NCBI GenBank assembly: GCA_947630795.1
Contig: CANRJC010000004.1
Span: 1 to 64,000, forward strand
Direction of reading: 5' to 3'
DNA from: an uncultured Phascolarctobacterium sp.
GTDB lineage: Bacteria; Bacillota; Negativicutes; Acidaminococcales; Acidaminococcaceae
Length of the DNA: 64,000 bases
How positions within the stretch are numbered: the stretch's first letter is position 1; each line of letters starts with the position of its first letter. Below are positions 50,021 through 61,254 of the stretch, one piece after another. Made by a program: the position numbers and the translations under genes. The notes under the pieces were generated by a model, which did not search any database, was not told the DNA's origin, and saw only the letters and a program-made list of their open reading frames with translations.

Positions 50021-52423
<2,403 letters not shown>

Positions 52424-52471: not shown

Positions 52472-52500
52472 ATTATATCAAATACGCCGAAGATATGCAA
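52472..52500 (-). promoter_or_regulatory. secA operon promoter
   Basis: TTGCAT (52495-52500) and TATAAT (52472-52477), 17 bp apart on the minus strand, about 50 bp before the TTG start. Confidence 0.7.
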
Positions 52501-52517
52501 AAAAAGATGAGTGATGA

Positions 52518-52577
52518 GCAAAAAATAAAAGAGCGAAGGCACCGCCTGCTGCGGCCGCGCCTGCTCTTTTTTCGCTC
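52518..52577 (-). terminator. Terminator between the structured RNA and secA
   Basis: Outer stem GAGCGAA / TTCGCTC enclosing a GC-rich inner region, followed by TTTTATTTTTTGC on the minus strand. It insulates secA from transcription coming from the RNA promoter. Confidence 0.65.
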
Positions 52578-52718
52578 CGACCTTTCGCAAAAAAACTTTT
52601 TTCGCAAAGCCCGAGAGTTTTCCAAAAAACTTTTTCGCAAAAAGTTTGATGTTTTTTACAAATATAATTTTCTATGAAAGTTATCGCAAAATTTTCGAGC
52701 TTTTCGAAAAACGAAAAA

Positions 52719-52940
52719 GGATGCGGTCTTGCTGACCTGGTCTTTGCCCCCACACTCGCCTGCCGGAGGCTTCGCTCCTAAGCTTTTGCTCCCCACTGCA
52801 ACCCCTCTCGTCCCCGTTTTCGAGGACGGCAGGCCTTACATCTACACCGCGCCATGCTCACAGAGACCTTTTCTCTGCTTACGTGGATCGTTTTGCCCGC
52901 GACTGGCCTCGACTTGCAACCACAGACCAAGGCCGCACCC
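52719..52940 (-). ncRNA. Structured noncoding RNA, candidate raiA-motif RNA
   Basis: About 220 nt on the minus strand start just after a strong promoter and end at TTTTTCGTTTTTC. The two ends pair: GGGTGCGG (52933-52940) with CCGCATCC (52719-52726), and CTTGGTC (52925-52931) with GACCAGG (52736-52742). Inside are an 8-bp helix GCCTGCCG / CGGCAGGC (52827-52834 with 52758-52765), a perfect hairpin CAGAGA / TCTCTG (52861-52877) and a CGTCC / GGACG hairpin. No open frame with a ribosome binding site. The spot upstream of secA-prfB is where hpf/raiA usually lies in Firmicutes, so raiA-motif RNA is the leading guess; 6S RNA is an alternative. Not SRP, tmRNA or RNase P. Confidence 0.6.
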
Positions 52941-52945
52941 ACTTC

Positions 52946-52974
52946 ATTATACGGTAAATTTTTTTCGCCCGCAA
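52946..52974 (-). promoter_or_regulatory. Promoter of the structured RNA
   Basis: TTGCGG (52969-52974) and TATAAT (52946-52951), 17 bp apart on the minus strand, with no gene downstream before secA. Confidence 0.75.
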
Positions 52975-53059: not shown

Positions 53060-53674
53060 GTGTTTTCGATGATCGCCCTGCCCAGAGTTTTGGATTTTCC
53101 TCTGGATCAAAATTGTCATCTCGTTTGCGATTTCTACCTGCAACTGTTGGAGACCAAGAACCGTGCGCTCTACCTTCACAGCCTGCAGGTGGCCAATTAC
53201 GCATTGAGCACCGGCATCCAGATGGGGCTGTCCAAAGCCGAAGCAGGCCGCTTGAAGATGGCCGCCCTTCTTCACGACATCGGCAAACTGGCCGTGCCCA
53301 ATTTGATCCTCGGCAAGTTCCCCTATCTTTCTACCAGAGAACAGCAGGTCTATAAGCGGCACCCTGTTGCCGGCGCCAGTATGTTGGAGAACCTGCCCGC
53401 TTTGTCTGAGGTGGCGCTGATGATCAGCTGCCATCACGAAAGATGGGACGGCAAGGGCTTCCCCCGCCGTCTGAAAGGGCAGAACATCCCCTTGGGCGCT
53501 TCCATCATCGCCGTGTGCGATTATTACGACCGTTACCTCAACCCCTGCATGGAAAATTATCGTTCCGAGCATTCCCGCTCTTTGATGGAACTGAACAACT
53601 TGGCCGGTCAGGCCTTCGATCCTCTGGTAGTGCAGGCCTTCACTCAGTGCCTGCTGGGCAAGACCGGGCAGTAA
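53060..53674 (+). CDS. HD-GYP-like phosphohydrolase, stand-alone
   Basis: A 204-residue HD-domain protein. LYLHSLQVANYAL, LLHDIGKLAVP (the HD pair), HPVAGASML and HHERWDGKGFPRRLKGQNIP (the GYP region, here with KGFP) follow the HD-GYP order, so it may hydrolyse c-di-GMP. There is no sensor domain. The start is taken as GTG at 53060, with ATG at 53069 as the alternative; the ribosome binding site is weak. Monocistronic. Confidence 0.85.
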   Translation: MFSMIALPRVLDFPLDQNCHLVCDFYLQLLETKNRALYLHSLQVANYALSTGIQMGLSKAEAGRLKMAALLHDIGKLAVPNLILGKFPYLSTREQQVYKRHPVAGASMLENLPALSEVALMISCHHERWDGKGFPRRLKGQNIPLGASIIAVCDYYDRYLNPCMENYRSEHSRSLMELNNLAGQAFDPLVVQAFTQCLLGKTGQ

Positions 53675-53730
53675 GACCTGCGCCCCTCGGCAAAGAGGCG
53701 CGGAAAATTTCAAATTATCATGAACGACGC

Positions 53731-53757
53731 GAGCCCGAGGCCGGATGCCTCGGGCTC
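53731..53757 (+). terminator. Terminator of the HD-GYP-like gene
   Basis: A perfect 11-bp stem (GAGCCCGAGGC / GCCTCGGGCTC), loop CGGAT, followed by TTTCTTTT. Confidence 0.9.
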
Positions 53758-54053
53758 TTTCTTTTGATCGACGGCAATGACGGCCGTCGCTTTTTTGTTT
53801 TTTCTTCGCCCGTGTCTCTCTATGCAAAAGGAAAAATATCTTCGAAAAATTTTGAGCTCCGCCGGCAACGGCACCGATGTTGCCGGATCGAGCAACGAGC
53901 AAAACTTTGCGAAAAATTTCAAAGTCCGTATTCTCTTTGCGGGCTCAGTGACGACACAAAGTATATTTATCTTTTCTATAAGACGAATATACTTTACTTA
54001 TTTTTGGCTTTATTCTATAATAGGTGCCATAAAAAACAAGGGAGCATCCTTCA
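53758..54053. other. Gap before the anion transporter gene
   Basis: About 300 bp of AT-rich sequence with GAAAAATTTTG runs near 53,845 and 53,910 and the transporter promoter at its end. No supported gene. Confidence 0.4.
53993..54021 (+). promoter_or_regulatory. Promoter of the DASS-family transporter gene
   Basis: TTTACT (53993-53998) and TATAAT (54016-54021), 17 bp apart, 32 bp before the start codon. Confidence 0.7.
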
Positions 54054-61111: not shown

Positions 61112-61133
61112 GGGCTACATCAGTTTTATAGAA

Positions 61134-61231
61134 CTTCATCCAGAGTAGCTGAGGGACTGGCCCTATGAAGCTACGGCAACCACGCTGCGGCGTAAGGTGC
61201 CAATTCCAACGGCTACGGTCGGCAGATGAAG
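61134..61231 (+). ncRNA. SAM-I (S-box) riboswitch
   Basis: The S-box core is plain: CTTCATC (61134-61140) pairs with GATGAAG (61225-61231) as P1; CAGAGTAGCTGAGGGACTGG, GATGAAGC-like TATGAAGCTACGGCAACC, and GGTGCCAATTCC all sit in order. SAM binding stabilises P1 and favours the downstream terminator, turning the methionine transporter off. Confidence 0.95.
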
Positions 61232-61254
61232 GACTTCTTCCGAGGAAGACCTCT

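Follow-up and report, generated by a model that had tools for sequence, protein, structure and literature searches.

A full-length raiA (ModT) RNA upstream of secA in a Phascolarctobacterium genome without detectable HPF, Spo0A or GGDEF proteins

Upstream of secA, an uncultured Phascolarctobacterium sp. carries a structured stretch of about 220 nt on the minus strand, which raises the question of what RNA it encodes and which partners that RNA needs in its host. We analysed a window of 64,000 nucleotides (contig CANRJC010000004.1, assembly GCA_947630795.1) from a draft genome of 51 contigs that is estimated to be 100% complete (G000). An initial annotation had placed a structured RNA gene at 52719-52974, with a raiA RNA as the first candidate and, failing that, 6S RNA or a new class, and had asked for a search with the Rfam covariance models. 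In that search (cmscan), the raiA/ModT model RF03072 matched window positions 52936-52723 (-) with 190 bits and an E value of 1.4e-48, far above its gathering score of 101.3 bits, and the alignment ran end to end over all 209 model positions (1-209). Only a single copy was found in the genome. Judged by its score over the full model, the RNA before secA is a full-length raiA (ModT) RNA, a further member of a known family, as the first candidate had it. The earlier interval does hold the RNA, but it takes in the promoter as well; the RNA proper occupies 52723-52936 (-), so that RNA position n is window position 52937-n. The description of about 220 nt without coding potential holds, as the listed open reading frames across the RNA look like chance frames, and the long minus-strand frame over the RNA is antisense to an HD-GYP gene.

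6S RNA is an abundant, trans-acting RNA of about 200 nt that is linked to growth phase, and the locus resembles it in size and in its closed ends. However, no 6S model matched at E values up to 1 in the 901-base stretch scanned against Rfam, nor did any other credible family besides the full-length RF03072 match, and we regard a 6S RNA or a new RNA class at this locus as having next to no probability. Weak matches to microRNA families at about 52581-52720 were rejected as A/T-rich noise.

The promoter was found exactly as first annotated, with the -35 element TTGCGG at 52969-52974 (-) and the -10 element TATAAT at 52946-52951 (-), separated by 17 nt. The layout TTG-N16/17-TATAAT stands at the same place before the raiA RNA in all 31 family loci (raw count): a TTG-type -35 element in 31/31, and TATAAT or a sequence with one mismatch to it in 31/31. 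Because TTGCGG matches TTGACA at only 3 of 6 positions, a generic promoter scan misses this promoter. The T-run and the further terminator that had been noted ahead of secA are likewise present. Directly after the closing helix P1 lies the T-tract TTTTTCGTTTTT at 52718-52707 (-), the likely end of a short isoform, and a T-rich stretch follows P1 in 25 of the 31 family loci. Promoter and T-tract together predict a short transcript from about 52940 to 52707 (-). Further on, an intrinsic-terminator-like hairpin with ATTTTTT (52520-52570, hairpin 52570-52527, -) is likely to end a long isoform and to insulate secA; the fold of 52610-52520 has -35.6 kcal/mol (z -1.93), and the hairpin is also present in the congener G001. 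With its own housekeeping promoter and terminator, and with the promoter and the T-tract conserved among family loci, the sequence has the layout of a stand-alone RNA gene. Since ModT of Clostridioides difficile has two ends and two isoforms (PMC11706538), we infer that a short form (~225-235 nt) and a rarer long form would be expected here as well, the putative long form having ~410 nt compared with 260 nt in C. difficile.

The predicted fold has a minimum free energy of -89.6 kcal/mol, compared with -77.8 kcal/mol (sd 4.4) for dinucleotide shuffles (z -2.67), and lies below 196 of 200 shuffles. The paired ends reported initially were recovered as P1, in which 52940-52923 pairs with 52734-52719 (-), including a 4-nt extension beyond the Rfam model; among its first 13 positions, the extension included, 12 are paired and one is a C-A mismatch. 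In this helix 1, 9 of 12 pairs change on both sides among 40 sequences. The P3 hairpin GCC-[AGUCGCG]-GGC (52895-52907, -) has its stem pairs intact in 40/40 sequences, and its loop forms pseudoknot 1 with the partner CGCGGUG (pk-loop; 52845-52851, -, opposite 52904-52898). This helix joins RNA positions 33-39 with 86-92 by seven pairs, in the window six standard pairs and a terminal A-G, and two of the seven change on both sides among relatives (U-A/C-G and A-U/G-C). In the cryo-EM structure, pseudoknot 1 is formed by the P3 loop with the P5-P6 junction (PMC11751092), and the helix 33-39/86-92, whose first strand lies in a loop closed by the nearly invariant GCC/GGC stem, fits it.

The covariation analysis, also called for by the initial annotation, was run on 40 distinct sequences of the class on the Rfam structure, with one hairpin (59-77) shifted by one base, as the Rfam drawing needs this shift to hold in the window. 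Excluded were the doubtful pairs 28-30/183-185 and 54-55/80-81, together with two terminal pairs of a variable hairpin. We found that 98.6% of cells formed standard pairs and that 24 of 49 pairs had both partners changed in one or more sequences; the structure was adjusted by hand on the window row, which favours the percentage paired and hardly the double changes. The covariation score was 0.390, compared with 0.156 for shuffled alignments, and was reached by 0 of 500 shuffles, and controls with slid partners gave at most 47% paired and a score of at most 0.079. The consensus helices of the raiA RNA are hence accompanied by compensatory changes. The Rfam pairs 28-30/183-185 were set aside because they do not hold in the window; as 11 of 40 sequences have G-G or A-G at 29/184, we preferred the P3/pseudoknot model of the cryo-EM papers.

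If the RNA is a raiA RNA, is it a leader of the gene that follows? The secA gene (50021-52423, -; 800 aa; NCBIfam/Pfam) lies on the same strand about 295 bp downstream, in the window and in G001, and Rfam labels the family 'Cis-reg; riboswitch', both of which would suit an RNA that acts in cis on the gene downstream, as a leader or riboswitch. On the other hand, secA has a predicted promoter of its own, TTTGCA-18-TATAAT with TG (52472-52501, -; 10/12 matches in the promoter scan), and the terminator hairpin lies in between. In the family the gene order is a divergent HD-GYP gene, the raiA RNA, mostly a gap of ~3 kb, hpf (176-180 aa), secA, prfB and DUF5693. The gap in the relative L113 holds an amino-acid ABC transporter operon (two binding proteins, permease and ATPase), whereas in G021 hpf directly follows the RNA, so the gene next downstream varies among relatives. 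Orthologues of the RNA also complement in trans (PMC11706538). Because secA has its own promoter, a terminator intervenes and the downstream gene is not conserved, we consider a role as a secA leader very unlikely. The 800-aa SecA lacks the C-terminal SEC-C zinc motif (PF02810) that is present in the 840-aa SecA of L113, and its frame terminates at an ordinary stop; further SecA matches were from Selenomonadaceae, Mitsuokella and Veillonella, in line with an organism of the Negativicutes.

In the window, both hpf and the ABC operon are missing between the raiA RNA and secA. The expectation that hpf/raiA stands at this place in Firmicutes is right for the relatives, but no such gene was found here at the level of profile searches. 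According to figures cited through PMC11706538, the usual neighbours of raiA RNAs are comFC (74%) and the raiA/hpf gene (66%), which are typical rather than defining; here the neighbours are the HD-GYP gene and secA instead. The ABC operon was located elsewhere in G000, on contig C18 (L152 4919-7159), with its binding protein, permease and ATPase at 70-80% identity, and a joint relocation of hpf with this operon was rejected, as the operon on C18 carries no HPF. A tblastn search of the window with the HPF of a relative gave chance matches only, none of them between the RNA and secA. Where relatives have hpf and the ABC operon, the stretch 52580-52700 is A/T-rich with repeated GCGAAAAA/GTTTTTT motifs, which are possibly debris of the deletion.

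Profile searches detected neither PF02482 (Ribosomal_S30AE) nor PF16321 (S30AE C-terminal) in G000, and no PF02482 in G001 (estimated 89% complete) or G015. In a survey of 380 genomes of the class, 234 of them near-complete, PF02482 was found in 232 of the 234; the two exceptions are G000 and G015, which belong to different genera and both keep a full-length raiA RNA. These absences are read from draft assemblies and profile cut-offs, by which a very divergent hibernation factor, or another type of c-di-GMP synthase, would be missed. The reverse case was seen in family f15, where no raiA RNA was found in ~190 genomes, nearly all of them with HPF. In this class-wide run few candidates were scored per genome, but true copies score ~190 bits; the f15 member G051 was negative in a deeper run too. 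Similarly, hpf and secA are arranged as usual in G053, and the 6.75 kb examined there shows no raiA RNA. Because HPF-less genomes keep the RNA and f15 keeps HPF without the RNA, the two appear separable both ways.

With hpf and the ABC operon gone from the locus, the RNA could also be a relic: hpf would have been its functional partner, and the RNA would have outlasted the loss of that gene by chance. Against this, the fold, the invariant nucleotides and the promoter are all intact. Between the raiA RNAs of G000 and G001 only two of 222 positions differ (0.9%); they lie in the same hairpin and leave its pairs intact. The divergence in secA, the secA-side spacer and the HD-GYP gene is 3.5-3.9% by comparison. 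Moreover, G015, from another genus without detectable HPF, also keeps a copy, of 193.5 bits. Given these observations, we have very little belief in a relic.

Other proteins that have been connected with this RNA are likewise not detectable in the genome. Profile searches found no Spo0A C-terminal domain and no GGDEF domain in G000, G001 or G015. Neither absence is peculiar to G000: Spo0A is absent from every sampled genome of the family, GGDEF was undetected in 22 of 37, and the occurrence of ModT in non-spore-formers had already been stated (PMC11706538). What is distinctive is the combined absence of Spo0A, GGDEF and HPF, which is common to G000, G001 and G015. Given these profile-level absences, the core function of the raiA RNA would be one that cannot require HPF, Spo0A or GGDEF-made c-di-GMP in this host. 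In C. difficile, c-di-GMP links ModT to sporulation, and deletion of ModT raises c-di-GMP (PMC11706538). If G000, in which the profile search detected no GGDEF domain, has no c-di-GMP synthase of another kind, this link cannot be a universal mechanism.

We therefore propose, with good though not full confidence, that the RNA is a trans-acting, housekeeping-like raiA RNA for which HPF, Spo0A and GGDEF proteins are not obligatory partners, since it is kept nearly unchanged where none of the three is detectable. Signals in the sequence suggest that a housekeeping sigma-A type promoter would drive synthesis of an RNA of ~225 nt, which would fold into the compact, P1-closed and pseudoknotted raiA fold and end at the T-tract that follows P1, while some transcripts would occasionally run on to the second terminator before secA. 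Going by orthologues, it is most likely a stable, trans-acting RNA of high abundance and may aid the exit from exponential growth, through some protein or small-molecule partner or through catalytic activity of the RNA itself. Trans action, high abundance and two isoforms have been reported for ModT in C. difficile (PMC11706538), and trans action is drawn from both C. difficile and C. acetobutylicum (PMC11706538). If the three proteins are not obligatory, the sporulation and c-di-GMP effects seen in Clostridia are probably downstream outputs.

The remaining neighbour is the HD-GYP gene (53060-53674, +), which is divergent from the raiA RNA and encodes a stand-alone protein of 204 aa (PF13487, E 1.5e-34) with HDIG and HHERWDGKGFP motifs, its catalytic motifs being mostly intact. 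It is the only PF13487 gene found in G000. The gene is adjacent to and divergent from the RNA in 35/35 sampled family genomes where both could be located, 33 of them from match coordinates or short loci and two (G033 and G008) read directly. Two family genomes stand outside this count: G025, whose contig ends ~113 bp beyond the HD gene, and G011 (63% complete), in which no raiA RNA was found. Seven loci of family f35 show the same adjacency at ~350-560 bp, and of the 18 near-complete family genomes that lack GGDEF, 17 carry exactly one PF13487 (HD_5) gene. No paper in the literature collection searched brings raiA, noncoding RNA and HD-GYP together.

It is conceivable that the raiA RNA works with this phosphodiesterase, controlling it or being controlled by it, which would link the RNA to cyclic (di)nucleotide signalling. 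The constant adjacency in the family and in f35, the sole HD_5 gene in nearly all of the near-complete genomes without GGDEF, the mostly intact catalytic motifs and the rise of c-di-GMP upon ModT deletion in C. difficile (PMC11706538) all speak for such a link. However, plain inherited gene order can give the same adjacency, no HD-GYP gene was seen near the raiA RNA in the sequence examined from several other families of the class (G037, G039 and G050), and G000 has no detectable GGDEF proteins, so that the substrate in this genus would not be GGDEF-made c-di-GMP. Inherited gene order suffices as an explanation of the adjacency. That the RNA is functionally linked with the HD-GYP protein is possible, and we hold it to be rather unlikely. 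The same tentative weight goes to the idea that in this family and f35 the RNA and the protein function as a unit, which is suggested by the retention of just these two in genomes without GGDEF, Spo0A and, beyond that, HPF. If true, the conserved role of the raiA RNA would be to regulate an HD-GYP enzyme, or to be regulated by one, with a substrate different from the c-di-GMP that GGDEF proteins make. On the far side of the gene, the spacer to a transporter gene (53675-54053) is ~769 bp longer in G001 and 20% diverged where aligned.

Knock-out phenotypes (sporulation, aggregation and c-di-GMP) and cryo-EM structures have been published for the raiA RNA family (PMC11706538, PMC11751092, PMC12286853). 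The statement that these RNAs are functionally unsolved still applies to their biochemical function, but no longer to phenotypes and structures. The RNA described here shares with the C. acetobutylicum raiA RNA (PDB 9CXF, 9ELY) and with C. difficile ModT the full-length model match, the invariant core, P1, pseudoknot 1 with the P3 loop, the sigma-A type promoter, the T-tract following P1 and another terminator downstream of it. It differs in having neither an hpf/raiA gene nor comFC directly beside it, in a host without detectable HPF, Spo0A and GGDEF, and in its stand-alone HD-GYP neighbour. OLE, ROOL and GOLLD are comparable to raiA, being conserved bacterial RNAs of large size and ornate structure with a function still under debate, but they are separate families, and they form multimers while the raiA RNA is monomeric by cryo-EM (PMC12286853). 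Few bacterial RNAs with an unexplained molecular role are as conserved and abundant as the raiA RNA. It has been tied to HPF, the ribosome-hibernation factor after which it is named, to Spo0A sporulation and to GGDEF-made c-di-GMP; a small genome that keeps the RNA while none of these is detectable leaves fewer candidates for its true partner and is a simple host in which to find it. Its natural separation from HPF, together with an HD-GYP gene that stays beside it, should make this question easier to test.

Two further RNA observations were made. The raiA RNA of a relative in genus g17 (L126 11125-11409, -) is ~80 nt longer and still scores 184 bits; near a variable hairpin it has GCAGCTTAGA.GTAAGTCCTGCCGCAG partially duplicated in tandem. 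In the window itself, a SAM riboswitch (RF00162) is present at 61133-61232 (+) with 88.5 bits.
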